From: Oceanimonas smirnovii ATCC BAA-899
GTDB lineage: Bacteria; Pseudomonadota; Gammaproteobacteria; Enterobacterales; Aeromonadaceae
Length of the DNA: 64,000 nt
Assembly (NCBI RefSeq): GCF_000381965.1
Contig: NZ_KB908454.1
Location: 472,324-536,323 of the forward strand
Reading direction: 5' to 3'
Position numbers and translations under genes: made by a program
Shown here: one piece after another, positions 15,135 to 35,773 of the stretch
Layout: every line of letters begins with the position of its first letter
Position numbering within the stretch: the first letter of the stretch is position 1
Notes under the pieces: model-generated
Told to the model about the DNA's origin: nothing
The model's database searches: none
Seen by the model: only the letters and a program-made list of their open reading frames with translations

Positions 15135-15200
15135 CGAGACCCCTTCGGGGAGCGGTAAGCGGTAAGCGATCAGCTTTAAGTGGAGTAGCTGGTGGTTTTT
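15135..15200 (+). repeat. Family A heptad element after the SLT lipoprotein gene
   Basis: It starts immediately after the stop with the hairpin ACCCCTTCGGGGAGC, followed by units GGTAAGC, GGTAAGC, GATCAGC. It matches the layout of the element after the decarboxylase gene. Confidence 0.55.
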
Positions 15201-15238
15201 GAGGTGTGCCTGTTTGGTACAAGCTGTTTGCTTGATGG

Positions 15239-15299
15239 GCTCCGGCCTGCGCCGGAGCGACGGTGAAGATATCGTCATTCTGGCGAAGGCCAGAATCCA
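15239..15299. repeat. Pair of REP-like palindromes
   Basis: GCTCCGGC-CTGC-GCCGGAGC is a perfect 8-bp stem (15239-15258). ATTCTGGC-GAAG-GCCAGAAT is a second perfect 8-bp stem (15278-15297), flanked by GTC and CCA. Such GTCATTC...GAATCCA palindromes are common dispersed elements in proteobacteria. They sit between convergent genes, so they may also terminate transcription. Confidence 0.6.
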
Positions 15300-15360
15300 T
15301 TGTACAAACCACACAGAAACTTCAGGCACCACCTCGTATCGGAAGGCCCTAACAGAACAA

Positions 15361-15388
15361 CTTATAGCTGATAGCTGATAGCTTACGG
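15361..15388 (-). repeat. Family A heptads overlapping the dsdA stop
   Basis: On the minus strand the last codons of dsdA run into GCCGTAA GCTATCA GCTATCA GCTATAA. The TAA of the first unit is the dsdA stop codon, so the repeat has replaced the original gene end. Confidence 0.6.
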
Positions 15389-16732: not shown

Positions 16733-16768
16733 AAAACGAGTCCTGAAAACGAGCTGCGGCCAGTATAG

Positions 16769-16799
16769 CAAAACAAACGCCGCGATAATCCGCGGCGCT
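16769..16799 (-). terminator. Terminator after the AGCS symporter gene
   Basis: On the minus strand GCGCCGCG and CGCGGCG pair around a short AT loop, followed by TTTGTTTT. It lies between the symporter gene and dsdA, so dsdA may be transcribed partly from its own promoter. Confidence 0.7.
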
Positions 16800-16810
16800 G
16801 TCGCTACTGC

Positions 16811-16825
16811 TTATCCCTAATCCCC
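16811..16825 (-). repeat. Family B heptads (GGGATTA) after the symporter stop
   Basis: Minus strand: two units GGGATTA, GGGATAA begin about 6 nt after the stop of the symporter gene. They have the same unit as after flhB, fliO and ligA. Confidence 0.45.
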
Positions 16826-16830
16826 GGGTT

Positions 16831-18165: not shown

Positions 18166-18185
18166 CGGTGTCACTCCTGAAAGTT

Positions 18186-18200
18186 AATAATGTCATTATT
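18186..18200. promoter_or_regulatory. Palindrome upstream of the symporter gene
   Basis: AATAATGTCATTATT is a perfect 7+1+7 inverted repeat, 20 bp upstream of the symporter start. It has the size and place of an operator for a dimeric repressor. The regulator is unknown. Confidence 0.35.
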
Positions 18201-18247
18201 GAATTGATGCCGCCTAAGACTAGACCCATTCAGAACAATAACGCCAG

Positions 18248-20221
18248 CTAAAAATAACACTGCATAATGTGTCTTAATGCCGTGATCACACTTTTGTGTC
18301 CGGAGTAGCCAAACCGGCTGGCCAGTTTGGCGGGTTCGGCACCGGGCTGCAGGGCGGCCTGCAGCAGTTGTTGCTGAAATCCGGTTAATGGCGTCCGGGG
18401 AAGGGTATGAGTAACAAAGCGGCGCAGGGCAGGGCAGTCGGCATGCCAGTCTCTGTGATAAAAAGCCAGGTCATGGGCCCGTTGCCCATCCTGTGGCAAC
18501 ACTGTGTCTGTGCTTTTTGGCTGGTGGTCGGCCATAAACTGCTGCTGCCATATTGGCAGCATGGCCCGGGCCTGTGAGCTTGCCGGCCAGAGCATCATGG
18601 CTGCCTTCAGGCCGCTGACGCCATCAGTATTCAGCCCCATGCGTACCAGCGAAAACTGATTTTGCTGCCAAAATGCCATCAACTCCGGGCTGGCACCAAA
18701 GCTGGTACCCAGAAAATCGCAGCTGGCATGCTGTTTCAGCCAGTCAAGCAGTTGTGAACCAACGCCCATGCCCTGGCAGGCCGGATGTACCACAATGCGC
18801 ATAATACGGTCATAGCTGAAGCGACAGGCATCATAATGGCCACCATGAAATGCCAGTGACTGCGGCAGCAAGTGCCCGCGCGGGCGGCGCTGGCCACGCC
18901 AGATAGCGCTGGCCAGCTGCGGCTCCAGCTCACCTTCCCGTATTACCAACACTGCTGCCACCGGTATTTCACCGCGAAATGCAGCGACTACCGTCACGCC
19001 GGGTGCATCCAGCAGCTGGCGCAGATCACCGGGGCGGGTCTGATAATGGGCCAGAGTGAGCAGACCAAACAGCTGCTCCAGCAGCGTGTCATTGTGCAGT
19101 AAGGCTTTCCGGCTCAGCGGACGAATGGATAACTCACCTGTGGTGGCCGGAGCTGGTGGCTCCGCATTCAGGGCCATCAGGGTAAACAGCAGCGGCTCCA
19201 GCGGATCCGAGACGCTCCAGCGGGCAGGAATATCAAGGTGCAGCTTGCGCCAGCGCGGAAACAAAGCTGCCAGTGCCGGCTGAAATTTAAGCGCAAAGCC
19301 AAGGCCGGTGCCTTCATAGCCGTGCTCTGTGCTGGCAAACACACAGGTATATTGCCGTGCCAGGGCCAGCAGCATGGGCACCGGAATGGCGGCCGCTTCA
19401 TCCACCAGCACCAGATCAGCATCGGGCTTTGTTTGCAGCAGTGCATCCGGTGCTGTAAAGGGCAGGAGCCGGCTGCAATGGGTTTGCGCCTGAGCGGCCG
19501 CGCCCGGGCTTGGAGCGGTTAACACCACTTCTTTACCCGCCTGCAACCAGCGTTCAGCAACGCGCCCCAGCAGGCTGGACTTGCCCCGGCCCCGGTCGGC
19601 GGTCAGCACCACGGGAATTTGCTGGCGCGCACAGTGCAGCATCACCGCCAGGGCATGGCGCTGTTGCGGGTTCAGACAGCCGTTTCTGTCTGGCCGGCAT
19701 TGCCAGCGAGCACCCTGACGGAGTGCGGGCAGACTGAACGCCTGCCCCTGACGATGGATTAATACATCGGCATTTGCCTGCAGCAGGCGTACAAAGCGGG
19801 CAATAAAATGACTGTAAAGGTGGTCTGCCTGCTCGGGCAGGGCCACATAGCGGCGCAGATCCGGACAGCCAGACTCAGGCCAGTGTTCCAGCGGCGGACA
19901 CAACAACAGCAAAATACCGCCGGCAGCCAGGGCACCACCAGCTGCGCCAAGGGCATCTGGATGCAGACCGCTGAAGGCATTAAATACCAGCAGAGAATAT
20001 TCACGGCCAAGGGCGCTGTGATATTTGCCCATGGGACTGTGGGGTTGATCAGCAGGGGCTGCCCCCAGCCAGAGGTGAGAGAGCTCACCGCAGTGAGCAA
20101 GCAGGTAATGTGCCTGTGCTTGTGCCCAGTGAACATCGCCGCTCAGCACCAGCAGCCTGCGCTCTCCCAGCCTGTTCAGTTGCCGGCAGAAGCCGGACCA
20201 GTCAGTCAAACAGCTGTTCAC
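18248..20221 (-). CDS. tmcA: tRNA(Met) cytidine acetyltransferase TmcA
   Basis: 657 residues (E. coli 671). It makes N4-acetylcytidine at the wobble base of elongator tRNA-Met, using acetyl-CoA and ATP. N-terminal DUF1726-like part, then the helicase module with Walker A VLTADRGRGKSSLLGR and Walker B LVLVDEAAAIPVP. The GNAT domain has IVVHPACQGMGVGSQLLDW, and a short C-terminal tail follows. Its start overlaps the HlyU-family gene by 20 nt, so the two are likely cotranscribed. Confidence 0.95.
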   Translation of the reverse strand: MNSCLTDWSGFCRQLNRLGERRLLVLSGDVHWAQAQAHYLLAHCGELSHLWLGAAPADQPHSPMGKYHSALGREYSLLVFNAFSGLHPDALGAAGGALAAGGILLLLCPPLEHWPESGCPDLRRYVALPEQADHLYSHFIARFVRLLQANADVLIHRQGQAFSLPALRQGARWQCRPDRNGCLNPQQRHALAVMLHCARQQIPVVLTADRGRGKSSLLGRVAERWLQAGKEVVLTAPSPGAAAQAQTHCSRLLPFTAPDALLQTKPDADLVLVDEAAAIPVPMLLALARQYTCVFASTEHGYEGTGLGFALKFQPALAALFPRWRKLHLDIPARWSVSDPLEPLLFTLMALNAEPPAPATTGELSIRPLSRKALLHNDTLLEQLFGLLTLAHYQTRPGDLRQLLDAPGVTVVAAFRGEIPVAAVLVIREGELEPQLASAIWRGQRRPRGHLLPQSLAFHGGHYDACRFSYDRIMRIVVHPACQGMGVGSQLLDWLKQHASCDFLGTSFGASPELMAFWQQNQFSLVRMGLNTDGVSGLKAAMMLWPASSQARAMLPIWQQQFMADHQPKSTDTVLPQDGQRAHDLAFYHRDWHADCPALRRFVTHTLPRTPLTGFQQQLLQAALQPGAEPAKLASRFGYSGHKSVITALRHIMQCYF

Positions 20222-20480
20222 CGTTCTCGTCTATCAGCCGCTGAGCTTTGGCAACCATCAGCTCGGCAGCCAGCTCGGCACCGGGCAGCAGATCGGCCCT
20301 TATCAGCCGGTATTCCCGGGTTTCGCCATTATGCTGCTGCACAATGCGGCCCTGCAGACGATATTGGCCGCCCTCATTACCGGGTTCAGGAATAATGGTA
20401 AATCCCTTGTACTCCACCGGCTCAAAGCGAGTGCTGGCGGGTGCGTGTGAACGAAACAGGTTTTTCAGCCAGGCAAACAC
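20202..20480 (-). CDS. HlyU-family small protein (PF10115 type)
   Basis: 92 residues. The conserved pattern GFTIIPEPGNEGGQYRLQGRI ... EYRLIRADL ... AQRLIDENGEQLF matches the small HlyU domain family, not the ArsR-type HlyU of V. cholerae. No DNA-binding helix-turn-helix is obvious, so a regulatory role is uncertain despite the family name. It lies 3 bp after crr and overlaps tmcA by 20 nt, forming a tight crr-HlyU-tmcA run on the minus strand. Confidence 0.75.
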   Translation of the reverse strand: MFAWLKNLFRSHAPASTRFEPVEYKGFTIIPEPGNEGGQYRLQGRIVQQHNGETREYRLIRADLLPGAELAAELMVAKAQRLIDENGEQLFD

Positions 20481-20483
20481 GGG

Positions 20484-20993
20484 TTACTTCCACACATGTA
20501 AAATAACGTCGTCGGCCACGGTGACAATGCCACTTTTCTTTTCAAGATTTTTGACTTCATCCATATTGGAAATAATGACAGGCGTCAGTGTTGATTTAGC
20601 CTTTTGCTCCAGCAGGGCCAAATCAAATTCCAGAATGGTATCCCCTTTTTTCACCTGCTGGCCTTCCTGAGCCACCCGGGTAAATCCTTCGCCTTTCAGC
20701 TCTACCGTGTCGATACCAAAGTGTACAAACAGCTCCAGTCCCGACTCCGACTCAATGGAAAAAGCGTGGTTGGTTTCAAAAATTTTGCCAATGGTGCCGT
20801 CACAGGGGGCCACCATTTTGTTGCCGCTGGGTTTAATGGCGAGGCCATCACCGACAATTTTCTCGGCAAATACCACATCCGGTACTTCCTCAAGGGGGAC
20901 AATTTCACCGGAGAGCGGGGCAAATACCTCAATGGCATCGGCAACATTGGTATCGTCAGACACCATTTTTTTCAGTTTATCGAACAGACCCAT
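20484..20993 (-). CDS. crr: PTS glucose-specific EIIA (Crr)
   Basis: 169 residues, almost colinear with E. coli Crr. Phosphocarrier that passes phosphate to sugar permeases and regulates adenylate cyclase and inducer exclusion. The two active-site histidines are H76 (FETNHAFSIE) and H91 (LFVHFGIDTVEL). The start at 20993 gives the standard MGLFDKLKK N-terminus. A minus-strand promoter with -10 TATCAT near 21024-21029 is possible. ptsH and ptsI, which in E. coli lie between cysK and crr, are absent here, and a terminator separates crr from cysK. Confidence 0.96.
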   Translation of the reverse strand: MGLFDKLKKMVSDDTNVADAIEVFAPLSGEIVPLEEVPDVVFAEKIVGDGLAIKPSGNKMVAPCDGTIGKIFETNHAFSIESESGLELFVHFGIDTVELKGEGFTRVAQEGQQVKKGDTILEFDLALLEQKAKSTLTPVIISNMDEVKNLEKKSGIVTVADDVILHVWK

Positions 20994-21057
20994 TGTCTCA
21001 GCTCCTGAAGGATTCACACGATGATGATAGCACGGCCATAAAGTGAATAAACAGCGA

Positions 21058-21085
21058 TCAAAAAAGGCACCTTGCGGTGCCTTTG
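21058..21085 (-). terminator. Rho-independent terminator after cysK
   Basis: On the minus strand GGCACC-GCAA-GGTGCC is followed by six T. It lies 16 bp beyond the cysK stop and uncouples cysK from crr. Confidence 0.85.
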
Positions 21086-21100
21086 AATGCCGGCAGTTAA

Positions 21101-22069
21101 TTACTGCTGCAGTTCCTGATCAGTAAAAATACCCTGGAACAGGGCCGTGCTCAGATAGCGCTCGCCGGAGCTGGGCAGAATCACCACAATGTTCTTGTCG
21201 GCAAACTCGGGCAGGGCGGCAATGCGGTTGGCGGCTACCACGGCAGCACCGGAGCTGATGCCGGCCAGAATGCCTTCGTCTTTCATCAGCCGGCGCGCCA
21301 TGTCGATGGCTTCTTCACTGGTAATCTGCTCTACCCGATCAATCAGAGACAGGTCCAGGTTACCGGGAATAAAGCCGGCACCAATGCCCTGAATTTTATG
21401 CGGGCCCGGTTTAATTTCTTCACCGGCCAGTGCCTGCGTGATAACCGGCGACTCTACCGGCTCTACTGCAACCGTGGTAATGGCCTTGCCCTGAGTGTGC
21501 TTGATATAGCGGGACACGCCGGTCAGGGTGCCACCGGTACCCACGCCGGCCACAAACACATCCACTTCGCCGTCTGTATCTTCCCAGATTTCGGGACCGG
21601 TGGTTTTTTCATGAATTTCCGGGTTGGCCGGGTTGTTGAACTGCTGCAGCAGCACATATTTCTCAGGCTGTGACTCTTTCAGCTCCATGGCCTTTTCAAT
21701 GGCACCCTTCATGCCTTTGGCACCGTCAGTAAGCACCAGGTTGGCACCCAGGGCTTTCAGCAGCTGGCGGCGCTCCAGACTCATGGTGTTGGGCATGGTC
21801 AGGGTAATGGCATAGCCGCGGGACGCCGCCACAAAGGCCAGAGCAATACCAGTATTACCACTGGTGGGTTCAATCAGCTCTTTTCCGGCCACCAGCTCAC
21901 CACGTTTTTCAGCATCCCAGATCATGTTGGCACCAATACGGCACTTAATGCTGAAGCTGGGGTTGCGGCTTTCTACCTTGGCCAATACACGGCCCTGGCT
22001 GACCCGGTTCAGTTTAACCAGTGGTGTATGGCCAATAGTAAGGGAGTTGTCTTCAAAAATTTTGCTCAT
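21101..22069 (-). CDS. cysK: Cysteine synthase A (O-acetylserine sulfhydrylase)
   Basis: 322 residues. PLP enzyme that makes L-cysteine from O-acetylserine and sulfide. PLP lysine K42 in [15 protein letters not shown], phosphate-binding [11 protein letters not shown], and C-terminal [11 protein letters not shown]. The Ser-Ile of SFSIK and the overall length point to CysK rather than CysM. It lies in the minus direction, with cysZ further upstream on the same strand but separated by the divergent ldtD-mepK pair. A palindrome at 22157 may be its operator. Confidence 0.96.
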
Positions 22070-22156
22070 GGTGGCTGTCCCTGATGTAAATAATGAAAAA
22101 GTGAAGTACCGTCTCAGCTTAACCCTTCCGCCGAGAATGAGAAGTGACGATTTGTT

Positions 22157-22171
22157 ATAACAATATGTTAT
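22157..22171. promoter_or_regulatory. Palindrome in the cysK/ldtD divergent region
   Basis: ATAACAATATGTTAT is a perfect 6+3+6 inverted repeat, about 90 bp upstream of the cysK start in an AT-rich promoter-like stretch. CysB would be the expected regulator of cysK, but its site is poorly defined, so the assignment is only a guess. Confidence 0.35.
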
Positions 22172-22174
22172 TAA

Positions 22175-22339
22175 ATGATAAAATCATATTCCATTCAGCC
22201 TGAAGAAAGCCAGGGGCACCACCACTGTGATCACCATCACGCCGTTTTTTTAAGTAGTAAGCGGAATTATTTGATTAAATGTCAGTATGCAGAGCGTTTG
22301 CCGGTTTTGAGCAATAGCGCCAAAGACGGGATTTATTAA
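22175..22339 (+). CDS. Candidate 54-residue His-rich small protein upstream of ldtD
   Basis: ATG 22175 to TAA 22337-22339 is an uninterrupted 54-codon frame. Residues 15-22 read HHHCDHHH, a possible metal-binding cluster or a histidine-sensing leader; several Cys/Lys/Arg follow. The stop and the ldtD start share a base (TAATG), the layout of translational coupling. Against it: no Shine-Dalgarno precedes the ATG, the frame is short and the composition could be chance. The 269-bp cysK-ldtD gap has no other gene. Confidence 0.25.
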
Positions 22340-23841
22340 TGAAAAAACATCTGATTTTTAGCTGGTTATGCAGTTTATGCATATTCAGTCTGGCGCCACA
22401 GGCCGCTACCTGGCAGCAGGAGCACGACGCTCGCCTGCAACTGCATCAGCTGGGGTTGGAGCTGTCTCTTGCGGATGTGCACAGTGGCATTACCGAGCGC
22501 TGGCAAAAAGCGGTCACTGCTGACACTGCCTCGGAAGCCGCCGATGATGAGCTCTGGCTGTCCTTGGCTGCCTTTTGGCGCGAATGGGCAGCGCTGGAAT
22601 TTGAAGACCGGCAATATCTGCGCACGCAAAAACTCATACTTTCCACAAATCAGGGTGAAATGGAGCAGCTGCATCAGGCGGCAGCCAGCCCGGCCGATGC
22701 TGGTCGCCGACAGCAGCTGGTTAACCAAATCATGCCGGCGTTTAATGACTATCAGCAGCTCAAGGCGCAGCTTGCCCGCTTGCTGGCCATGGCTGATGAA
22801 CCCTGGCCGGCCCTGGCGGGAGCAACCTTGCGGCCCGGTGATCAGGGCCCGCGAGTGGCGCAGCTGCGCCAGCGCCTGCAACGGCTGGGCGATATGCCCG
22901 ACAGTGAGCCGCTGGTATTCGAGTTGTTTGATAATAACCTTGAGCAAGGCATCAAAGCCTTTCAGGCCCGTCATGGCCTGACCACAGACGGCGTAGTGGG
23001 ACCGCGTACTTACCACTGGCTCGACACCAGCCCGCGTCACCGGGCGCAGCTGCTCATGCGCAGCATGCTGCGCACCCTGATAGGCGACAGTCTGCCCGGC
23101 TCTTATATGCTGGTAAATATTCCCGAATACCGGCTGCGGTTATATCAGGATCAGGTCATGGTGCTGGAAAGCGATGTTATTGTAGGTCGTGACAGCCGCA
23201 AAACCCCCATTATGCACAGCCGCATTACCAACGTGGTGGTCAATCCGCCCTGGAATGTGCCCAACTCCATTATGACCAAAGACATAGTGCCCAGGCTGTA
23301 TCGCGATCCGGGTTATATCTCCCGCATGGGCTTTGAGGTGATCGACAGTGCCGGCAGAGTGGTGCCCGATGAAGAGTGGCAATATGTACTCTATATGGAA
23401 AATCGTTTTCCGTTTCGCCTGCGGCAAAAGCCCGGTGCCAGCAATGCGCTGGGTGCCTGGAAGTTTCATCTGCCCAATAACGAAGCCATTTATCTGCACG
23501 ACACACCGTCTCGCGGCTTGTTCTCCCGCGACAGCCGGGCGCTCAGCTCCGGGTGCGTGCGGGTAGAAAATGCCGAGCAGCTGGCGCACTGGCTGCTTGA
23601 TGCCACCATCTCCCGTGAGCGGCTGGCGCAGCTTAAAGCCGCCAAGCGCACCCGCTGGTTAAAAGTGAAAGAGCCGTTACCGGTATTTATGGTGTATTGG
23701 CGCGGCTGGCTGGCCGGTGGCGGGCTGCCTCAGTTTCGCGATGATATTTACCAATTTGATCGCGGCCTGAACAACCCCTTTAACAGTCAGATTCAGCAAA
23801 ATCAAATGAGTCTTATCGGTTTTGTATCCGAGTCCTTATAA
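22339..23841 (+). CDS. ldtD: L,D-transpeptidase, YcbB/LdtD type
   Basis: 500 residues (E. coli LdtD 615). Makes 3-3 (mDAP-mDAP) crosslinks in peptidoglycan in the periplasm. Signal peptide 1-22; peptidoglycan-binding domain about 164-230 (LRQRLQRLG, AFQARHGLTTDGVVGPRT); YkuD catalytic domain about 255-420 with H387 in YLHDTPSRGLF and nucleophile C406 in SSGCVRVE. The shorter N-terminal region is the main difference from E. coli. It is followed by a terminator hairpin and then a MepK-type endopeptidase, as in the E. coli ycbB-ycbK pair. It may be coupled to the small ORF ending at its ATG. Confidence 0.9.
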   Translation: MKKHLIFSWLCSLCIFSLAPQAATWQQEHDARLQLHQLGLELSLADVHSGITERWQKAVTADTASEAADDELWLSLAAFWREWAALEFEDRQYLRTQKLILSTNQGEMEQLHQAAASPADAGRRQQLVNQIMPAFNDYQQLKAQLARLLAMADEPWPALAGATLRPGDQGPRVAQLRQRLQRLGDMPDSEPLVFELFDNNLEQGIKAFQARHGLTTDGVVGPRTYHWLDTSPRHRAQLLMRSMLRTLIGDSLPGSYMLVNIPEYRLRLYQDQVMVLESDVIVGRDSRKTPIMHSRITNVVVNPPWNVPNSIMTKDIVPRLYRDPGYISRMGFEVIDSAGRVVPDEEWQYVLYMENRFPFRLRQKPGASNALGAWKFHLPNNEAIYLHDTPSRGLFSRDSRALSSGCVRVENAEQLAHWLLDATISRERLAQLKAAKRTRWLKVKEPLPVFMVYWRGWLAGGGLPQFRDDIYQFDRGLNNPFNSQIQQNQMSLIGFVSESL

Positions 23842-23905
23842 CCAATGGTAATTGATCCTTACTATTAATGTGGGTAAGTTCTGTTCGCTGAAGCAAATAT
23901 GCCGG

Positions 23906-23950
23906 GCCGGCGGGTGAAGGGGGAAGCACATTCACCCGCCGGCTTTCTTT
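23906..23950 (+). terminator. Terminator after ldtD
   Basis: A 13-bp perfect stem, GCCGGCGGGTGAA with TTCACCCGCCGGC, 12-nt loop, followed by TTTCTTT. Because it lies 21 bp before the mepK start, it may act as an attenuator between the two genes. Confidence 0.75.
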
Positions 23951-23970
23951 GTGCGCTTATAGGAGGTTAT

Positions 23971-24516
23971 ATGCTGTCGCGCTCTGTGGATCGTCGTCGT
24001 TTTTTACTGGGGTTGGGGGGCTTGGGAGCTGCCGCCATGATGGCCAGCCCGGCACAGGCCAGCCTGTCGGCTCCGGTACGCACGCTGAGCCTGCATAACC
24101 TTCATACCGGCGAAAAAATAAGCGCCAGCTTCTGGGAAAAAGGTCATTACATAGGCGACAGCCTGGCATCATTCAACAAGGTCATGCGCGACTTTCGCAG
24201 CAACGAGGTGCACCGCATTGATCCCAGACTGTTTGATCAGCTGTTTTTGCTGCAGCATCGTCTGGGCAAGCAGGGCGAGATTCAGATCATCTCCGGTTAC
24301 CGTTCTCCCGCCACCAACGCCATGCTGCGCAGCAAAAGCTCGGGCGTGGCCAAAAAAAGCTACCACATGAAAGGTCAGGCCATTGATCTGCGCCTGCCCG
24401 GCATAGAGCTGGCGCATGTGCGCAACGCCGCTAAACAGCTGGCCGTGGGAGGGGTGGGTTATTATCCCGGCTCCAACTTTGTTCACCTGGATACCGGCCC
24501 TGTACGCAGCTGGTAA
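23971..24516 (+). CDS. mepK: Murein endopeptidase, YcbK/MepK (DUF882) family
   Basis: 181 residues (E. coli MepK 182). The ATG at 23971 has AGGAGG 4 nt upstream; a longer reading without a Shine-Dalgarno is rejected. The N-terminus has twin arginines (DRRRFLLGLGG), so export by Tat is likely. Zinc-binding residues are in SYHMKGQAIDLR and NFVHLDTGP, the M15-like pattern. In E. coli this enzyme cuts the 3-3 crosslinks made by LdtD, so the pair makes and breaks the same bond. Its last 34 bp overlap the end of cysZ, which runs the other way. Confidence 0.9.
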   Translation: MLSRSVDRRRFLLGLGGLGAAAMMASPAQASLSAPVRTLSLHNLHTGEKISASFWEKGHYIGDSLASFNKVMRDFRSNEVHRIDPRLFDQLFLLQHRLGKQGEIQIISGYRSPATNAMLRSKSSGVAKKSYHMKGQAIDLRLPGIELAHVRNAAKQLAVGGVGYYPGSNFVHLDTGPVRSW

Positions 24517-25244
24517 AAATGATCTACCCATAACGCAGTAGCACCGCACACTGCCACCGGCATCACCAGCAGGTTGATAAAGGGCAGGCTGGAGCACAGT
24601 GTGACGCTGGCACCAAACCCCCAGGTAAGCCGGCGCTTGCTGCCCAGCTCCCGCTGCATCAAGGTAAAGTCGATTTTGTGGTTATCAAAGGGGTAATCAC
24701 AGTACTGAATGGCCATCATCCAGGCGCTGAAGGCAAACCATACCAGTGGTGCCAGCGTCTGGCCCACAACGGGTACCAGAAATAACAACAGGCAGCCCAG
24801 CGCCCGGGGCAGGTAGTAGGCCATTTTGCGCCACTCTCTGCCCAGCATGCGGGGTGTGTCTTTAATCAGGTCCAGCCAGCCGCTGTCGGGCACCGGATTG
24901 CCGGTGAGTTTCAGCTCTACCCGCTCTGCCAGCAGGCCGTTGAACGGAGCAGCCAGCATATTGGCAAAGCCGGTAAACACAAACGAAAAGCCCACCGCTA
25001 TGGTGACCAGTGCCAGCGGCCACAGCACATAGCCCAGCCAGTGCAGATAATCCGGGGTCTGCTCTGCCAGCCAGGTGAACATCACTTCCAGCTGAGTAAA
25101 CAGATAATAGAAAGCGCCGCCAAACAGCAGCAGATTAACCAGCAGCGGAATTAATACAAAAGGACGTAAATCCCGCTCACCGATAAGGGAGAGCCCCTTC
25201 ATCAGATATTGTGGCCCGCTGGCGCTGTGATAACTGACCGACAT
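24483..25244 (-). CDS. cysZ: Sulfate transporter CysZ
   Basis: 253 residues, the same as E. coli CysZ. Inner-membrane protein for sulfate uptake in cysteine synthesis. Motifs: the N-terminal ASGPQYLMKGLSLI, the hydrophobic hairpins (LLVNLLLFGGAFYYLF, VLWPLALVTIAVGFSFVF), and ALGCLLLFLVPVVGQ. The ATG at 25244 with GAGGA upstream is preferred to the longer ORF start. It is divergent from zipA and convergent with mepK, overlapping by 34 nt. Confidence 0.95.
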   Translation of the reverse strand: MSVSYHSASGPQYLMKGLSLIGERDLRPFVLIPLLVNLLLFGGAFYYLFTQLEVMFTWLAEQTPDYLHWLGYVLWPLALVTIAVGFSFVFTGFANMLAAPFNGLLAERVELKLTGNPVPDSGWLDLIKDTPRMLGREWRKMAYYLPRALGCLLLFLVPVVGQTLAPLVWFAFSAWMMAIQYCDYPFDNHKIDFTLMQRELGSKRRLTWGFGASVTLCSSLPFINLLVMPVAVCGATALWVDHFYQLRTGPVSR

Positions 25245-25489
25245 AACAATCCTCACCATAAAATGAAGCGCTTATTCTAAAGAAGGGAGGTGCTGGCTGC
25301 CAGCGTGCCACATCAGCAAAAACAGACGCGCGAAAGTGGCTGTCGCAGCGTATTTTTCATGCCAATGGCGGCATCACGGGCAAAAACGTCAATATTTTGT
25401 GGACTCTGGGCCAGTCAGGCACTTGTCAAATTGTAATGGTAAACATACCCTTGTCGCAGTATTGGGAACCCCCTATTAGAGACACGATA

Positions 25490-26440
25490 ATGCAGGACTT
25501 GCGAGTTATCTTGATTATTCTGGGCGCCATGGCGATTGCCGCCCTGCTGATCCATGGATTATGGAGCAGTAAAAAAGACCGTCAGCCATCCATGCGCAAC
25601 AAACCCATGGGGAAGGTAGCTTCAGAGCCCGGATCGGAAGACAGTTTCGATCAGGACGGCATTGGTCAGGTGCGGGTAGTTGCCGGCCAGAAGAATGCCA
25701 CGGCGGCAAAGCAAGAGCCGGCACCCAAGCGGGAAGAGCCACACTTTTCTGCGCTGGACGATGAAGATGACGAACAGCCGGTGGTAACTGCGGAGCCCAA
25801 GCCTGTGGTACAAAACCGACAGCCCGAACCCGAGCCGGAAGATGAGTTTGATCCCCTGTTTGATGAGCCGGTTGCCAAACGTGAGCCCGCAGCGGAAGAA
25901 GCACAGGTTGATGCCGGGCCACAAGAGCCTGAACAAACGATGGAGCAAGCGCCGCCGGCCGAGCCGGAAGTGCTGCCCGAGCCAGAGCCACAGGCCCCGT
26001 TGCGGGAAGTGCCCCGCACCTGGCAGGACGTTTACGTCATCAACCTGATGGCCCGGCCGAATCAGCAGATTGACGGCAATGCCCTGATGCGCGCACTGAC
26101 CAACAACGGTTTTCACTTTGGTGACATGGATATTTTTCATCATCACCAGACCCCGGCAGGGCAGGGCCAGGTGCTGTTCAGCTTGATCAACATGGTAAAA
26201 CCCGGCACCTTTAATCCCAAGGAAATGACCGGCTTCAGCACCCCCGGTGTATCCATCTTTATGCAGCTGCCCCGCCCGGGCATGGCCAAAAACCAGTTCA
26301 ACCTGATGGTGCAGACTGCCGAGAACCTGGCCGAAGAGCTGGACGCCCTGCTGTTTGATGTGGAGCGCTCACCGGTAAGCCCGGATTATCTGGCCCACTG
26401 CCGCGAACAGCTGCGCGACTACGACAGCCAGGCACAATAA
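25490..26440 (+). CDS. zipA: Cell division protein ZipA
   Basis: 316 residues. Membrane anchor that tethers FtsZ at midcell. The start MQDLRVILIILGAMAIAALL is the usual N-terminal membrane segment; a charged stretch follows, then a Pro/Glu-rich linker (about 75-195), then the C-terminal FtsZ-binding domain (WQDVYVINLMARPNQQIDG, FGDMDIFHHHQ). The start at 25490 is fixed by homology; upstream codons are in frame but not conserved. A hairpin terminator separates it from ligA, but readthrough is likely. Confidence 0.95.
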   Translation: MQDLRVILIILGAMAIAALLIHGLWSSKKDRQPSMRNKPMGKVASEPGSEDSFDQDGIGQVRVVAGQKNATAAKQEPAPKREEPHFSALDDEDDEQPVVTAEPKPVVQNRQPEPEPEDEFDPLFDEPVAKREPAAEEAQVDAGPQEPEQTMEQAPPAEPEVLPEPEPQAPLREVPRTWQDVYVINLMARPNQQIDGNALMRALTNNGFHFGDMDIFHHHQTPAGQGQVLFSLINMVKPGTFNPKEMTGFSTPGVSIFMQLPRPGMAKNQFNLMVQTAENLAEELDALLFDVERSPVSPDYLAHCREQLRDYDSQAQ

Positions 26441-28546
<2,106 letters not shown>

Positions 28547-28622
28547 GGGAGCAGGGAATGGGGAGTCCATTTCGTTTTACAACCCGCTTCCGGCTTCAAG
28601 CTTCCAGCTCCCCGAAGGGGCC
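28547..28622 (+). repeat. Family B and family A heptads after ligA
   Basis: GGGAGCA GGGAATG GGGAGTC (28547-28567) begins on the base after the ligA stop. It is followed by a GCTTCCGGCTTCAAGCTTCC tract and a CCCCGAAGGGG hairpin (to 28622), which is a family A arm in inverse orientation. No gene is in this 193-bp gap. Confidence 0.55.
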
Positions 28623-28677
28623 GCACCTGTAGGCCGGACTTTCGTCGCGGGTGCACCCCGGCGAACCATGCCACATG

Positions 28678-28693
28678 CGGCACTTTTCTTGCA
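28678..28693 (+). promoter_or_regulatory. Sigma-54-like promoter upstream of ugd
   Basis: CGGCACTTTTCTTGCA has GG and GC 12 nt apart, an intact TTGCA, and only the first T replaced by C. A start about 12 nt downstream would leave a normal leader before the ugd ATG at 28740, which has AAGGA in front. The same promoter class drives the flagellar operons here. Confidence 0.65.
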
Positions 28694-28739
28694 TGCCTGA
28701 AGCCATTATGTTTAAGGCTCTGCAAGCAAAGGACACTTC

Positions 28740-30095
28740 ATGAACATCACTGTATTTGGCTCGGGTTATGTGGGGCTGGTGGCGGCGGCATGCCTGGCCG
28801 ATGTGGGTCATTCAGTGATGTGCATGGACACCAACCCCGAGCGCATTCATCACCTTAACAACGGCCATATGCCCATTTATGAGCCGGGTCTTAAAGAGCT
28901 GGTAGCCGCCAACACAGCCGCGGGCAGGCTCATTTTCACCAGTGATACTCAGGCTGCCGTTAATGCCGGAGACATGCTGTTTATTGCCGTGGGAACGCCC
29001 CCCGATGAAGACGGCAGCGCCGATCTGCAATATGTGCTGCAGGTGGCAGACAGCATAGGGCGGCATATGCAAACGCCCAAAATCATTGTTAACAAGTCGA
29101 CCGTGCCGGTGGGTACAGCCGATAAAGTAACCGCAGTGGTATATGAGCAACTGAAAAAACGAGGCTCAAACCTGCACCTTGAAGTGTGCTCCAACCCTGA
29201 GTTTATGAAAGAAGGCTGCGCCATAGAAGACTTTACCCGGGGGCCGCGCATTATAGTGGGCACCGAATCGGACTGGGTAAAAAACGCCATGCAGGAATGC
29301 TACGGCCCCTACAACCGTAACCGCGACAAACTCATGTTTATGGGTGTGCGCGCCGCCGAGCTGACCAAATATGCCGCCAATGCCATGCTGGCCACCAAAA
29401 TCAGCTTTATGAACGAAATGGCCAACCTGGCCGAACACCTGCAGGTAGACATAGAAGAAGTACGCCAGGGCATTGGCAGCGATCCGCGCATTGGTTATCA
29501 CTTTATCTACCCGGGCTGCGGCTATGGCGGCTCCTGCTTTCCCAAAGATGTGCGCGCACTGTGCCGCACCGCCGAGCAGCTTGATCAACCCAGCCAGCTG
29601 CTGCGAGCCGTTGAGGCAGTCAATGAACGCCAAAAAACCGTCCTGTTTGAAAAGCTGAGTAATGCCTTTAACGGAGATCTGGCCGGCAAAACCATTGCTA
29701 TCTGGGGGCTGGCGTTCAAACCGGGCACAGACGACATGCGCGAAGCCCCCAGCCGGGTGCTGATGGAGGCTTTGTGGCAAGCCGGCGCAAATGTACAGGC
29801 CTATGATCCCAAGGCCATGGATGAATGCCGGCGGTTATATTCAGCACAACTGCAATCAACCCACAACCAGAGCAAACTCCGCTTATGTGAAAATAAAGCC
29901 GATGCAGTAAAAAATGCCGATGCCCTGGTGATCTGTACAGAATGGAAAGAATTCAGGGCGGTAGACCTAAGGTGGCTGAAGAATGAACTGCGGTTTCCTG
30001 TAGTGGTGGATGGAAGAAATTTATATAAGCCAGAAGCGGCGAGAGTCTCTGGTTTAATGTACTTTGGTATTGGATGCATAAATAGTTATGGCTAA
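28740..30095 (+). CDS. ugd: UDP-glucose 6-dehydrogenase
   Basis: 451 residues. Oxidises UDP-glucose to UDP-glucuronate with NAD+, for capsule, exopolysaccharide or LPS sugars. Rossmann motif GSGYVG at 7-12, the family segment NKSTVPVGTADKV, and the catalytic Cys at C266 in GYGGSCFPKD. The length fits the longer Ugd class. The gene stands alone with a sigma-54-like promoter, next to a flagellin-linked glycosyltransferase. The 3' end is AT-richer and leads into the AT-rich region. Confidence 0.95.
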   Translation: MNITVFGSGYVGLVAAACLADVGHSVMCMDTNPERIHHLNNGHMPIYEPGLKELVAANTAAGRLIFTSDTQAAVNAGDMLFIAVGTPPDEDGSADLQYVLQVADSIGRHMQTPKIIVNKSTVPVGTADKVTAVVYEQLKKRGSNLHLEVCSNPEFMKEGCAIEDFTRGPRIIVGTESDWVKNAMQECYGPYNRNRDKLMFMGVRAAELTKYAANAMLATKISFMNEMANLAEHLQVDIEEVRQGIGSDPRIGYHFIYPGCGYGGSCFPKDVRALCRTAEQLDQPSQLLRAVEAVNERQKTVLFEKLSNAFNGDLAGKTIAIWGLAFKPGTDDMREAPSRVLMEALWQAGANVQAYDPKAMDECRRLYSAQLQSTHNQSKLRLCENKADAVKNADALVICTEWKEFRAVDLRWLKNELRFPVVVDGRNLYKPEAARVSGLMYFGIGCINSYG

Positions 30096-30391: not shown

Positions 30392-33300
30392 TCACTTCGA
30401 GGTTTCTTTGCTTTCTATGTTATCCTTTAGAGTTAATGACTTTATATAACCGCCTTTGTCGAAACTCGGGATTGAAAGCAATATTCTTAATGATATATCG
30501 TAACTTCCATAAGCATGATGGAGAATGTAAGCCATTTTCTTTTTTTGTGTTGTGGTCATTTTTTCTATACTTTTCCCACTCTTTATATATATAGCATCAG
30601 CGGTGGTTAATTGGTTGATTCCATTGTGTATCTGGTTATTTATAACCAGTGGGGCATAAAGCCGCTTTCTTTCTTCTAGTAGCGTGTGAAGTATGAAGCC
30701 ATGTTCACGCATCCACTGATCTATTTCTGCAAAAAGAGGCTGGTTTTCATAAAGTTGAATGAAGTTAACTTCAGTCTGTATAACCAAAGTATTCTCTAGC
30801 TTATTTTCAGAATTTTTGAATACAGATAACTCCCCACCCTGAATATCAATTTTTAACCAATCAATTTCAGTTAGGTCGCTGAGGTCGTCCAGTCTTACTG
30901 TCTTTATTTTTTCTTCTTTTTTTATCTTTGCCCATTGAGGATAACCTTGAAATTGATTCAAAACCTCAAAGTTAGGTTTCAATGTTGAAGTCATTCCCGA
31001 AGCATTGCAGATATAAAGGGTAGCTTCGTTTCCGTCACCCACAGCATATGGAAGGTACGTTTCATTTTCTGACTTCATCTGAATTAGTTTTTCTAATGCA
31101 TCATTCTGAGGTTCAAAGCCAGTAACTTTAACCTTTTTATCTCTTAATAGGTTGAAATAAGGTGGCTCACCATCAATGGGGTTGGCTCCAATATCCACAA
31201 CAGAGATAAGCTCCTCGATATCCCAGTTGAAATCACCACTGTTTGAACGAGTTATTTTGTTTTTGGTATTTATATTTAAATTTTCTTTGTTTTCTTCTGA
31301 TGCCACAAAGATATTATTTTTTCTTTTGTATTGTTCCGCAAGTTTTGAATCAGCAAGATGCAATGTTCTCGTGCATAGCTCAGGAGAGTCAAGATGATGG
31401 TGATATAAAAAGGCCAGTTTTAAAATGCTGTTATCACTTGATTTAGCTAGCTTTGATTTGGATGGTAAAAAAATTGCATCTGCATTAAATAAAAGATCAG
31501 GTGAGGCGATATCGTTAGAGCTTTTTACATACATCTTGTTTATGAAATCATGAAAAATGAAGCCATGTTCCATAAGTACAGAGGAAATTGCGCTAAAGTC
31601 ACATTCTTTATTATGTATAAAATTAAAATTTACTTTTACTTTTACGATGAGAGTGTTGGCAAGTTTTTTGGTAGAGTTGGCAAGTATGGTTAAAGTGTCA
31701 TGATTATTATCAATAACCAGTAAGTCTATGGCCTCTAAACCTTCAACATCATCAAGCCGAAGAGTGTTGACTGGTAGTTGAGCTAAAAGTTCGTACCCAT
31801 TTCTTAACTCCTCGGGAAATGACTCTGTTTGAACAAAGGGTAAACTTCTGGTATGGGCTGGTTTAAGAGTAACACATAATGTTTTCTGACTTCCATCTCC
31901 TAACACTGTCATGGGAAAGTGATGAAAATCACCGGTGTTGGCCAGTTGTTGCGAGTTATTGATCCTGCTGCCCGGATCGATACAGATTGTTCGTATCGCA
32001 CCGAGTTTATGCAGAGTGTGAAAGCTCTCGGAGCAAGCGAAACCAGCTCCATGATCAACAACAACTATTTTTCCGTTAAAACGGAAATGAAAGTCATCAT
32101 CTTTAACTAATACAGGCTCTTCCGGTAACTGAAGCTGAACAGGTTCGGCTTCATCTTCAAACTGAGCATTTCCATTTTTATCCAGCGTTAATGCTGCGGG
32201 TTGCTTGCCCTCGCAGTAACGTTGCCAGATTGCGCGCATGGCATTGCTGAAGTTACGGGCAAAGCGCTTGGCATCACAAACTGGGGATTCCAGTAGAGCG
32301 CTTCTCATATGAGTACGAATATTGGCCAGGTTATCAATGTCGCTGGCCAGCATCACAACCAGATCGTGGTAATGCTCCCAGCTTTCCGCTACCAGCTGCG
32401 GCATACCTGCATTGGTTAAGTGAGTAGCCGAATGGCGGCCGGCAAAGGTGGGGCCGGGGTAAGTAACAACTGGTACTCCCATATACATGGCTTCACAGGT
32501 GGTTAGGCCGCCTGAATACGGCCAAGTATCGAGAGCAATATCTACTTTTCGATAAGAATTGAGTAATTCTTCGTGACTCGAAGGGCCTTCGATGATGATG
32601 CGCTTTTCACTAACTCCTAGGTTGTTGAGTTGTTTTTTTATTTTTTCTCTAAATGTTTCACTACTAAATTGATATCCTTTGAGAAAAAGTTTTGATTTTG
32701 GCAGTGAGTACATTATCTTGGCCCACTCGCCCAGAAGGACAGGGTTTATTTTGGTTGGGTTGTTAAAACATCCAAGTGTAATGTGGCCATCTCGTCTAGC
32801 TGGTGGTGAATGAATGTCTGGTGTGTAAATTGGTGGATTATAGCAAATGTAGTCATCAGGCATTCGAATAAGTTTTTCTGTATAAAATTTGTCCTCGCCT
32901 ACAGGTGTTTCTATACTGTCACTTAGTAAATAGTCCATGGTGCTGAGGCCTGTTGTATTGATTAATCCTCCAACCCATTTAACCAATATTGGTGCTGGCT
33001 TCATTAGCATGGTTCGTATACGGAAACCATTATTATGACCACATAGGTCAAAAAGTATGTCGATCTGGTCGCTGGCTATTTCTTCGGCAAGATTTTCATC
33101 AGATTGATGTGTTGCAGTTGACCATTTTTTTGATGCTTTTATTATTTTTTGTGTGATATGATCTTCATGTTGGTTAGTGCTATAAGTGAATAGCTCTATT
33201 TCATGGGAAGGCAGAGAGTCAAGTGCCGATGTGATCATTTGACCAACAGGGTGGTTACGAAAGCCATCAGATACCATTCCAATTCGAATGGTTTTTGATT

Positions 33301-33976
33301 TTGTTTTTATTTCAGGGGTGTGAACTTTTTTACTGATATCTTTTGCATATCGTTCTTCCCATGACTCATACAGTGATTTAATGTCTTCCCTTTTTGTTTC
33401 TGGAAGGTAATGACTAAAGGTTAGCAGGTTGTTAAAGGGTGCGTCATTATTGCCGCTGAGCTTTATTGCTTCAAGGTAACACCTTTTGGCATTTTCAAAG
33501 TCGCCTAGATTTCTATATTGGTTTCCAAGGTTATTCCATGTGTTCCATGATTCGCTTTTTGCTTCTATGATGGCGAGAAATGTGTTAACTGACTCTTCGT
33601 AGTGATGTGCTGCTGCTTGTATTATCCCTTTTAGCTCGCTTGGTGGAGTTTTTTTTTCACCTGAATCTCCATTTTCAATGTATTTGAGAGCTAATTCGTT
33701 ATTTCCTATATCAAAGTATAGTCGCGCGAGCAGGTAATTTCCTTCCTCGTGGGCAGGGTTTTCTTTTAATAATGATTTTAAATTTGAAATGGACTCAAAA
33801 TTATTGCCTTGGTGATAATTTATTTTGGCCAGTATGAGTAATATTTCTTGGTTGTTGGGTCGCTTTTCTAACAGCGATTTCGCTTCTTTTTTCGCTTCAG
33901 AATAAAGACCTTTTTGTACTAACTTCTGAATGATGCTTAGCTGCTCGACTTCTACAAGTCGGTCCTTTGAGTTCAT
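30392..33976 (-). CDS. TPR - GT41 glycosyltransferase - tandem FkbM-like protein, probable flagellin glycosyltransferase
   Basis: 1194 residues. TPR-like repeats at about 10-190. GT41 domain (SPINDLY/OGT type) at about 228-590, with IGMVSDGFRNHPVGQ, LFDLCGHNNGFR, CFNNPTKINP, EGPSSHEELL and ALDTWPYSGGLTTCEAMYMG. First FkbM-like domain at about 635-840, where the SAM motif reads VVDHGAGFA and the usual LKIDIQG is LLVIDNNHD, so it is probably inactive. Second FkbM domain at about 925-1130, with VVDIGANPIDG and LKIDIQGGELSVF intact. Likely role: sugar transfer to Ser/Thr of flagellin, with methylation of the glycan. The position, divergent from fliC, supports this; sugar and target are not shown. 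The gene is AT-rich at both ends with a GC-typical middle. AAGGTG precedes the ATG. Confidence 0.8.
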   Translation of the reverse strand: MNSKDRLVEVEQLSIIQKLVQKGLYSEAKKEAKSLLEKRPNNQEILLILAKINYHQGNNFESISNLKSLLKENPAHEEGNYLLARLYFDIGNNELALKYIENGDSGEKKTPPSELKGIIQAAAHHYEESVNTFLAIIEAKSESWNTWNNLGNQYRNLGDFENAKRCYLEAIKLSGNNDAPFNNLLTFSHYLPETKREDIKSLYESWEERYAKDISKKVHTPEIKTKSKTIRIGMVSDGFRNHPVGQMITSALDSLPSHEIELFTYSTNQHEDHITQKIIKASKKWSTATHQSDENLAEEIASDQIDILFDLCGHNNGFRIRTMLMKPAPILVKWVGGLINTTGLSTMDYLLSDSIETPVGEDKFYTEKLIRMPDDYICYNPPIYTPDIHSPPARRDGHITLGCFNNPTKINPVLLGEWAKIMYSLPKSKLFLKGYQFSSETFREKIKKQLNNLGVSEKRIIIEGPSSHEELLNSYRKVDIALDTWPYSGGLTTCEAMYMGVPVVTYPGPTFAGRHSATHLTNAGMPQLVAESWEHYHDLVVMLASDIDNLANIRTHMRSALLESPVCDAKRFARNFSNAMRAIWQRYCEGKQPAALTLDKNGNAQFEDEAEPVQLQLPEEPVLVKDDDFHFRFNGKIVVVDHGAGFACSESFHTLHKLGAIRTICIDPGSRINNSQQLANTGDFHHFPMTVLGDGSQKTLCVTLKPAHTRSLPFVQTESFPEELRNGYELLAQLPVNTLRLDDVEGLEAIDLLVIDNNHDTLTILANSTKKLANTLIVKVKVNFNFIHNKECDFSAISSVLMEHGFIFHDFINKMYVKSSNDIASPDLLFNADAIFLPSKSKLAKSSDNSILKLAFLYHHHLDSPELCTRTLHLADSKLAEQYKRKNNIFVASEENKENLNINTKNKITRSNSGDFNWDIEELISVVDIGANPIDGEPPYFNLLRDKKVKVTGFEPQNDALEKLIQMKSENETYLPYAVGDGNEATLYICNASGMTSTLKPNFEVLNQFQGYPQWAKIKKEEKIKTVRLDDLSDLTEIDWLKIDIQGGELSVFKNSENKLENTLVIQTEVNFIQLYENQPLFAEIDQWMREHGFILHTLLEERKRLYAPLVINNQIHNGINQLTTADAIYIKSGKSIEKMTTTQKKKMAYILHHAYGSYDISLRILLSIPSFDKGGYIKSLTLKDNIESKETSK

Positions 33977-34081: not shown

Positions 34082-34108
34082 TAAAGATCTTGATAGTGAA
34101 GCCGATAG
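34082..34108 (+). promoter_or_regulatory. Sigma-28 promoter P1 of fliC
   Basis: TAAAGATC at 34082-34089, an 11-nt spacer, then GCCGATAG at 34101-34108; consensus TAAA(GTTT)-N11-GCCGATAA. It would be read by FliA, encoded at 60.3 kb. Confidence 0.85.
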
Positions 34109-34160: not shown

Positions 34161-34187
34161 TAAAGCTGCCACAGATGAGGCCGATAC
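34161..34187 (+). promoter_or_regulatory. Sigma-28 promoter P2 of fliC
   Basis: TAAAGCTG at 34161-34168, an 11-nt spacer, then GCCGATAC at 34180-34187. It lies 79 bp after P1, with similar bases following each -10 element (CCTAGGTAGCAA, CCTAAGCAACA). The fliC leader from P2 would be about 70 nt. The rest of the 285-bp gap holds the direct repeat TGTAAGGTAAA and no gene. Confidence 0.85.
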
Positions 34188-34261: not shown

Positions 34262-35773
34262 ATGGCGATTACAGTCAACACCAACGTTACCGGTATGACC
34301 GCTCAACGTAACCTGAACCAGTCTTCCAATGCCCTGGCCACCTCCATGGAACGCCTGGCTACCGGTAGCCGCATCAACTCCGCCAAGGATGATGCCGCCG
34401 GTCTGCAAATCTCAAACCGCCTTAACTCTCAGGTACGCGGCTTGGGTGTGGCGATGAAAAACGCCAGCGACGGTATCTCCATCGCGCAGACCGCTGAAGG
34501 TGCGATGAATGAGTCAACCTCCATTCTGCAACGTATGCGGGATCTGGCCCTGCAGTCTGCCAACGGCACTAACTCTGCTGATGATCGCAAGGCGATTCAG
34601 AAAGAAGTATCTGCTCTGCAAAGTGAACTGACCCGTATAGCAGAAACTACCTCCTTCGGTGGACAAAACTTGATCGACGGCACTTTCGGTAGTCGTACTC
34701 TGCAGGTTGGGGCCAATGCCAATGAAACCATTGATCTTGCTTTGAAGGATGTGTCTGCAGATGCGATTGGTTCTCACCGTGCGGTATTGAAAGGATCCAG
34801 TACTACCGCTACGGATCCTGGTTTGGGTCGTGCAACTGCTGCTGTTACGGCTGGAGCAGCTACTGTTGGTGAGAACGGCCTGGATGCTGAAACACTGACT
34901 ATCAGTGGTCAGGCTACGGCGACAACAGCCGCCACTACTGCAAACGATGATGCAATGACTATCGCATCTGATATTAACGCCATCAGCGCGACAACTGGTG
35001 TTACTGCTGAAGCCCGGACTGAAGCAACCTTAACCACAAATGTTAAAGGTGAAGTTAGCTTTGATCTTAATGGTGCTGCCATTTCTGCCAATATCGCTGA
35101 CGCAACAGATCTCTCTGCTCTGGCAGACGCCGTCAATGCGAAATCTACTGAAACCGGTATTAAAGCAACGGTAGATGGTGGAACCCTGACCTTCGCCAGT
35201 GAAGAAGGTAAAGACGTCAAAATTAAAGGTTTCACCGGCAAGCAAGCTGATGGCACATCAGAAGCAACCGCCTCTGTTCAAGGTAAGGATATTGATGGTA
35301 CCGCTGCTGGTGCAGCTGTAACACTGACTAGTGCCGGGGCTAACTCAACTACTGTAGCTGGCTCAATTCGTTTGAATGGTACTGAATCATTTTCAGTTAA
35401 AGGCGGAGCTGATGATACGACCGTTGGTGTTACCACTGCGGGTAGTTTTTCTGCCTTGAAAACTGTGGCATCACTTGACTTGTCAAGCCAGCAAGGCGCT
35501 CAGGATGCTATTTCGGTCCTGGATGGTGCCATCGGCATGATTGACGCCCAGCGTTCCGACTTGGGTGCCATGCAGAACCGTCTGAACAGCACCATCAACA
35601 ACCTGGCCAACACCCGTGAAAACGCGGCGGCCGGTATGTCCCGCATCAAGGACGTGGACTTTGCCCAGGAAACCGTAAACCTGACCAAGCAGCAGATTCT
35701 GCAGCAGGCTGGTACTTCCATCCTGGCGCAAGCCAAGCAAATCCCGCAGGCAGCACTGTCTTTGCTGGGCTAA
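34262..35773 (+). CDS. fliC: Flagellin FliC
   Basis: 503 residues; filament subunit. N-terminal D0/D1 ([40 protein letters not shown]) and C-terminal D1/D0 ([36 protein letters not shown]) are well conserved. The middle (about 165-410) is variable and rich in Ala, Thr, Ser and Asp, giving many O-glycosylation targets for the neighbouring GT41 protein. GGGAG is 6-7 nt before the ATG. It is the only flagellin in the window; many relatives carry two or more in tandem. Confidence 0.97.

Follow-up and report, generated by a model that had tools for sequence, protein, structure and literature searches.

A divergent neighbour of flagellin in Oceanimonas smirnovii joins TPR, GT41, a non-canonical FkbM domain and a variable last module

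The glycans on flagellin influence assembly of the filament, motility and recognition, but it is poorly understood how soluble glycosyltransferases locate flagellin and how the products come to differ among related strains. One gene in a 64,000-nucleotide stretch of Oceanimonas smirnovii ATCC BAA-899 (contig NZ_KB908454.1, positions 472,324 to 536,323; the whole stretch is called the window here) bears on both questions. The gene (30392..33976, minus strand, ATG start) encodes a putative modular flagellin glycosyltransferase/methyltransferase of 1194 residues, in which tetratricopeptide repeats (TPRs) are followed by a GT41 catalytic domain and two FkbM-like domains, termed D1 and D2. What might a methyltransferase-like domain that lacks the methyltransferase motifs be doing in such a protein? 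On the strength of sequence comparisons, we consider it probable (about 60%) that the protein is a cytoplasmic modular flagellin O-glycosyltransferase with a repurposed D1 and a swappable last module. The original prediction, made from the DNA letters of this stretch, had described a TPR-GT41-FkbM-FkbM fusion of 1194 residues divergent from fliC; the Pfam domains and the open reading frame (ORF) confirm the fusion, and the strands of the two genes (minus, and plus for fliC) confirm the arrangement. What it missed is that D1 is the constant part and the module after D1 the variable part, O-methylation by D2 being one of several tailoring options.

Domains of the protein and the fate of the FkbM motifs

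The N-terminal half resembles known protein O-glycosyltransferases. Several Pfam TPR models matched the whole protein at residues about 19–179, in a TPR region placed at residues about 15–185 (33422..33934, minus strand, as for all domains here). The GT41 domain (residues 224–597; 32186..33307), delimited by Pfam and by alignment with OGT, matched PF13844 with an E-value of 3e-49 (168.1 bits against a cut-off of 25; best stretch 399–575). H242 and K409 align with the His of FGNHP and the Lys of FNQLYK in human OGT, residues that we take to have catalytic or donor-binding roles, and both are invariant among 41 aligned family proteins. The best sequence matches of the domain in the PDB were SPINDLY (7y4i, E 3.4e-71; 8dtf, E 6.8e-71), a protein O-fucosyltransferase, and Thermobaculum OGT (5djs, E 4.3e-68), followed by animal OGTs and XcOGT. 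SPINDLY and Thermobaculum OGT share the TPR and GT41 parts with our protein, and we know of no FkbM or other tailoring module in either.

The two C-terminal domains differ sharply in how well they fit the FkbM methyltransferases. All four motifs named in the original prediction were located. D2 (residues about 915–1160; 30497..31234) keeps VVDIGANPIDG (D928), FEP and LKIDIQGGEL (D1044, containing KIDIQGGE). It accounts for the best stretch (928–1095) of the whole-protein match to PF05050 (E 7.8e-28), and on its own (C-terminal 294 residues) scored 89.7 bits against PF05050 (cut-off 22.7) and 51.5 bits against TIGR01444 (cut-off 37.7), so it is an FkbM domain by both profile cut-offs as well as by its DxGAN and DIQGxE motifs, as had been predicted. 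D1 (residues 626–884; 31325..32101), delimited by BLASTP, Pfam and profile-profile comparison, instead reads VVDHGAGFA (D641) and LLVIDNNHD (D756), with neither the DxGAN loop for S-adenosylmethionine (SAM) nor the DIQGxE motif. Alone (residues 602–894), it reached only 14.2 bits (E 0.048) against PF05050, under the cut-off, in a match confined to the C-terminal half of the model; the second D1 of a related protein (P0003) scored 26.2. Aligned directly, D1 and D2 are 29% identical over 192 columns (BLASTP, E 3e-22 in a two-sequence search), and hhalign joined a 41-row D1 profile to a 3-row D2 profile with probability 100 (E 6.2e-40, 268 columns). Judged by these alignments, the two clearly share ancestry along the length of D1. 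The expectation that residues 635–840 would be FkbM-related with the canonical motifs gone thus holds at the level of sequence profiles, PF05050 having been searched with each domain separately. Against solved structures, the D1 profile found nothing better than E 1.4, and the FkbM profile only one protein (E 0.058).

D1 has a consensus of its own. Among 140 sequences chosen with the D1 model, 135 keep the motif-I Asp, 138 have Asp or Glu at the post-I position, 136 keep the motif-IV Asp and 125 have Asp at the second Gly of DIQGG. The Asn position of the SAM loop is variable. Canonical DxGAN occurs in 6/140, each time in the second, FkbM-type copy of its protein, and the Gln-Gly-Gly-Glu that follows the motif-IV Asp in D2 is kept in about 7/140. 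The ratio of nonsynonymous to synonymous substitution rates (dN/dS) of D1 was 0.055–0.082 in the four closest pairs, each from Pseudomonas, where GT41 had 0.038–0.075. D1 is therefore a conserved, repurposed domain under purifying selection, and the low dN/dS of close pairs, together with the consensus, rules out a decaying relic. The predicted loss of SAM binding fared less simply: the Gly-rich motifs are indeed gone, but the acidic residues are kept, so that the loss appears likely rather than certain.

The TPR-GT41-D1 core is constant and the last module exchanged

Within the genus, the gene was found in 5/23 genomes (the window's own, G001, G004, G011 and G019), and all five copies adjoin fliC. 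The four homologues are 51–56% identical to the window protein over TPR-GT41-D1 or more. The first approximately 885 residues are held in common and the remainder differs: after D1, the window protein has FkbM, G011 has FkbM and GT56 (PF07429), G004 has a second D1 and a class-I methyltransferase-like module, G001 has the class-I methyltransferase-like module alone and G019 has GT2. The surroundings, from reading the ORFs, differ as well, with ugd-ligA in the window, ligA in G004, a UDP-sugar dehydrogenase and flgL in G001, and sugar genes in G011 and G019; beside L022 and L025, sugar biosynthesis genes were recognised in the ORFs by eye. BLAST found no relative at 15/15 fliC loci from other members of the genus (one, L029, is cut by a contig end; in 8 the neighbouring ORFs were also read). 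At one fliC locus (L028:10109-11844, G017), a PseC-like aminotransferase and an IS3-like transposase, recognised by eye, replace the GT41 gene upstream of fliC, which reads as a different glycan pathway occupying this site. The Maf-type flagellin glycosyltransferase PF01973 matched 0/23 genus genomes, a weak negative given that only four archaea matched among 14 control genomes.

The same architecture recurs far outside the genus. We scanned 84,980 species genomes with two conserved GT41 peptides from a five-protein alignment, a pattern-limited scan that misses many relatives. This yielded 58 matching stretches, 42 of which encode a relative (three of them in genus members), in Pseudomonas, Azotobacter, Halomonas and kin, Marinobacter, Microbulbifer, kin of Alcanivorax, Bordetella, Siccibacter and others. 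D1 is present in 40/42; the exceptions, L080 and L081, are from Larsenimonas. The genus homologues and the recurrence of the core in these 42 named loci rule out a chance or mis-annotated fusion. Mean identity to the window protein across 41 relatives was 54% and 62% for the two halves of GT41, 34% for D1 and 24% for the TPRs, the least conserved of the shared regions.

What follows the core was tallied for 44 proteins (the window protein, L023 and the 42 loci), taking the part after D1, or after GT41 if D1 was absent. A class-I methyltransferase-like module, defined as a BLAST cluster, was found in 22, GT2 in 6 (for L045 and L061 by BLAST cluster and Pfam tally), sulfotransferase in 5, FkbM in 4 and GT56 in 2, with some proteins carrying two modules; 8 had none, ending 5–46 residues after D1. 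Three of the FkbM modules are D2-like, and that of L054 is dissimilar to those by BLAST. The class-I module received no Pfam name (36 C-terminal parts) and no NCBIfam name (two tested alone), and is putatively a methyltransferase from its GSGGST/VExD pattern. After the module-less genes of four loci (L053:8753-10149, L058:8744-10134, L062:8752-10766, L078:8611-9192 onward) we noted by eye a conserved hexapeptide-acyltransferase-like ORF and a sulfotransferase-like ORF (less clear in L078), with an APS-kinase-like ORF in addition in L062; a sulfated flagellin glycan is possible there.

On a quick GT41 tree with one label per protein (methyltransferase-like for L072 and L067, FkbM for L041 and L054, sulfotransferase for L055), the module label needed 20 changes, compared to 20.7 ± 1.0 (range 17–22) for shuffled labels, with 104/300 shuffles at 20 or fewer. 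Module type therefore has no detectable phylogenetic signal, in a test of limited power (half of the rows carry one label and 14/41 inner branches are weak). Well-supported sisters with different modules include L073 (methyltransferase-like) and L074 (sulfotransferase), L080 (methyltransferase-like) and L081 (GT2), L075 and L079, L058 and L065, and L055 and L062. Siccibacter colletis (L070) carries the methyltransferase-like module on an ORF of its own, directly after the main gene, and this ORF shares 89% identity with the fused version in S. turicensis (L076). The TPR-GT41-D1 core is thus constant, and the last module has been exchanged.

Flagellin linkage and the role of D1

The predicted tie to flagellin is borne out from two directions. 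First, a flagellin homologue is present in 42/42 named loci. In 41 it is no more than 1 kb from the gene, a count that includes L056, where the called start runs into fliC, and L081, where the flagellin ORF has only 92 residues; in L054, flagellin is 1657 bp from the gene, at a contig end. In Azotobacter vinelandii CA (L061), a TPR-GT41-D1-GT2 gene follows fliC at a distance of 144 bp. Second, D1 was searched by itself. Class-wide, its profile (A5) matched 19/369 genomes, strongly (E below 1e-90) only in the window genome and G423; the weaker matches were mostly open frames of 222–426 residues, one having 1001. In the family of G423, 89/201 genomes matched D1 at E 1e-20 or better. This family is presumably the Halomonadaceae, as ten D1 proteins share identical stretches with loci such as L053 of Litchfieldella anticariensis. 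From all 89 genomes we took 91 regions and called D1 at over 100 bits with home-made hidden Markov models, giving 91 D1 ORFs in 90 regions; L142 was excluded, its domain scoring higher as FkbM. Flagellin lies within 1 kb of 85/91 D1 ORFs, in all 85 cases on the same strand, with a median gap of 165 bp. It is farther away at L133 (1646 bp), L136 (3898 bp; the second part of a split gene), L153 (1524 bp) and L168 (2847 bp), and none was found at L179 (near a contig end) and L211. The D1 profile was built from flagellin-linked proteins, 10 of these 91 ORFs among them; leaving those out, 75/81 are within 1 kb of flagellin.

D1 also occurs apart from GT41. Its partners in the 91 ORFs are GT41 (59), GT4 (19), a TPR protein with an unassigned domain (3) and FkbM only (1, the split gene), and 9 have no recognised partner (one of these, L177, was left out of the scan). 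Among the 9, four (L168, L174, L176, L193) are TPR-sulfotransferase-D1, three of them continuing with a methyltransferase, and in L133 a methyltransferase and TPRs follow D1. In L132, L134 and L135, the last three of the 9, a stand-alone D1 gene is followed by a TPR-LicD protein (PF04991 36.0, 18.8 and 29.0 bits; cut-off 22.6, with L134 under it), and L132 and L134 also have a cytidylyltransferase (PF01467 over its cut-off; the best NCBIfam match, glycerol-3-phosphate cytidylyltransferase, is below its own). In these regions (L132:6601-9324, L134:6528-9082, L135:1922-4142), the D1 gene is 91–637 bp from fliC, and a phospho-alcohol modification of flagellin is conceivable there. Of the 32 D1 ORFs that lack GT41, 28 still have flagellin within 1 kb; the proteins behind the D1 profile included none of these 32. 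In L124, a GT4-D1 gene is followed by genes that match NeuC and NeuB over cut-off. The TPR-X-D1 proteins of L129 (6303-8738), L130 (6552-9008) and L137 (5312-7765) adjoin fliC; X looks ATP-grasp-like by eye (FEANPAM) and received no family name from Pfam or NCBIfam in L129 and L137.

As a control, PF13844 matched 66/201 genomes drawn from the same family, and we looked at seven places with GT41 that were not in the D1 set. Two low-scoring GT41 proteins (L142, L215) have no flagellin in 13 kb and L216 is an uninformative 3.3-kb contig; the remaining four are taken up below. L142 (6903-10013) is a distant GT41-FkbM fusion of 1036 residues in G560; two D1 genes of this genome (L132, L133) lie no more than 1.7 kb from flagellin. 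Overall, the flagellin link belongs to both the GT41 type and D1.

In the mechanism that we propose, the TPR and GT41 parts would act as an OGT/SPINDLY-type transferase, placing a sugar from a nucleotide donor onto Ser/Thr of FliC before its export. D2 would then probably O-methylate the transferred sugar within the same polypeptide. D1 most likely no longer methylates and would serve to recognise flagellin or its glycan, or to scaffold them, the role that we prefer to altered catalysis. The enzyme would be a platform: genomes show the last module swapped, and the final decoration of flagellin would change with it. More tentatively, and somewhat short of an even chance, D1 may found a family of pseudo-methyltransferases that dock onto flagellin or its glycan and can be carried from enzyme to enzyme. 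Bacteria could then re-write filament decoration by changing the catalytic modules that surround a single fixed adaptor, and the family would embrace at least four chemistries, those of the GT41, GT4 and sulfation fusions and of the LicD-type phosphotransfer neighbour gene.

Several results weigh against this account or parts of it. Four high-scoring GT41 proteins without D1 (L217, L218, L219 on the contig of L081, and L220 on the contig of L080) adjoin flagellin, so D1 is not required for the tie between GT41 and flagellin; the recognition role foreseen by the original prediction is accordingly favoured by the linkage of D1 without GT41 and weakened by these four. D1 and flagellin identities are correlated given GT41, with a partial rank correlation of 0.60 in the conserved part of flagellin and 0.37 in the variable part, but this is confounded with host phylogeny, and strict co-variation had a mixed outcome. 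Two relatives of the same genus, L023 and L043 (Zobellella endophytica), have near-identical flagellins (99% in the conserved and 86% in the variable part), with 85% TPR and 84% GT41 identity, yet their D1s are 40% identical, a poor fit with a strict flagellin-sequence reading; D1 itself may have been exchanged between such relatives. The terminal module exceeds GT41 in similarity by 5 points or more in only 2/242 pairs (L041/L042, 71% against 59% for GT41 and 32% for D1; L059/L063, 67% against 60%), so that transfer visible as excess similarity is not supported and the tree carries module exchange by itself. The dN/dS of D1 is higher in other close pairs (0.163 for L070–L076, 0.236 for L057–L069). 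The acidic FkbM positions mostly kept in D1 mean that a ligand may still bind. Finally, reading the ORFs around the window gene by eye turned up no dedicated gene for a sugar donor besides the convergent ugd.

Among other explanations, the best surviving is that D1 is still an enzyme, a divergent FkbM-derived transferase with its own active site (the DN/DP/LDxxxD consensus) performing a step common to these flagellin modifications. The strong consensus (135, 138, 136 and 125 of 140), purifying selection and the stand-alone genes near fliC would all suit an enzyme. We nevertheless think it unlikely, since the Gly-rich SAM loop is lost (DxGAN being confined to FkbM-type second copies), the window D1 is under the PF05050 cut-off and the partners already provide transfer chemistry. 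Slightly less probable still is a purely structural linker that spaces the catalytic modules without specific recognition. D1 does sit between glycosyltransferase and terminal module in many proteins and can be missing, as in L080/L220, L081/L219, L217 and L218, but the stand-alone D1 genes near fliC, the GT4-D1 proteins that end in D1 and the low dN/dS argue against a passive spacer. That the gene acts on another surface or flagellar component and is merely co-located is highly improbable: TPR-GT41 proteins do exist elsewhere, for example on a plasmid of a Nostoc that to our knowledge has no flagella (match H1), but flagellin is the neighbour in divergent and co-directional arrangements and in different genomic surroundings, and also beside D1 genes without GT41 (28/32).

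For the questions of how flagellin is found and how its decoration diversifies, the family is a direct handle, offering a constant core, many naturally swapped terminal modules, split and fused versions, and D1 with or without a glycosyltransferase. Each module predicts a mass shift of FliC (methyl +14, sulfate +80, hexose +162), and the modular hypothesis is thus testable strain by strain.

Known systems and the setting of the gene

As in a flagellin glycosylation island, a glycosyltransferase gene lies adjacent to fliC here. In the accessible part of their report, De Maayer and Cowan (2016; PMC4875605) describe SPINDLY-type GT41 enzymes (COG3914) beside fliC in enterobacterial islands, all but eight with a SAM (AdoMet) methyltransferase domain, cd02440, and list Siccibacter, which is common to both sets, among the positive genera. 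A GT41-methyltransferase fusion beside fliC is therefore already known from genomics, at least as that part presents it. GT41/TPR flagellin O-glycosylation, which the original prediction called known in other bacteria, accordingly has a precedent there as genomic inference and not as experiment. That set differs in being confined to Enterobacteriaceae, and the same part of the report makes no mention of a non-canonical FkbM domain, of D1 with GT4, sulfotransferase or LicD, or of module exchange around a fixed core. Separate FkbM genes near flagellin appear in Geobacillus (PMC5109656) and Dickeya (PMC7575072), as far as the accessible text of those papers goes. Aeromonas Fgi-1, considered as a counterpart, was rejected as a 327-residue GT2 enzyme of a different family (PMC7874193, in part). 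No description of D1 was found in the literature, which is weak evidence of novelty as subscription journals were mostly outside the search.

The probable substrate gene, fliC (34262..35773, plus strand), encodes a 503-residue flagellin, identified as an ORF whose homologues adjoin the relatives' genes in related loci. It forms a divergent pair with the TPR-GT41-D1-D2 gene, 285 bp apart. Two sigma-28-type promoters face fliC, TAAA-N15-GCCGATA at 34082..34107 and a second at 34161..34186 (both plus strand, by consensus match). They are the two exact matches in the window, against 0.04 expected, to what we take to be the sigma-28-type consensus. The G+C content of the gene is 38.7% (35.2% from D2 onward). 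The window as a whole has 54.6%, fliC 52.2% and ugd 53.2%, and the low value of the gene suggests acquisition from outside. On the other side lies ugd (28740-30095), convergent with the gene. Some 18 kb of non-flagellar genes (12074-30095; cysK, zipA, ligA, ugd and others, read by eye) lie between flgL (10595-11848) and the fliC side. In L026 (G009), by contrast, flgL is next to fliC, which indicates rearrangement within the genus. Outside the window, two more flagellin genes (G000:C1:394997-396840), with 49–51% N-terminal identity to FliC, point to a second flagellar system, which may be lateral.

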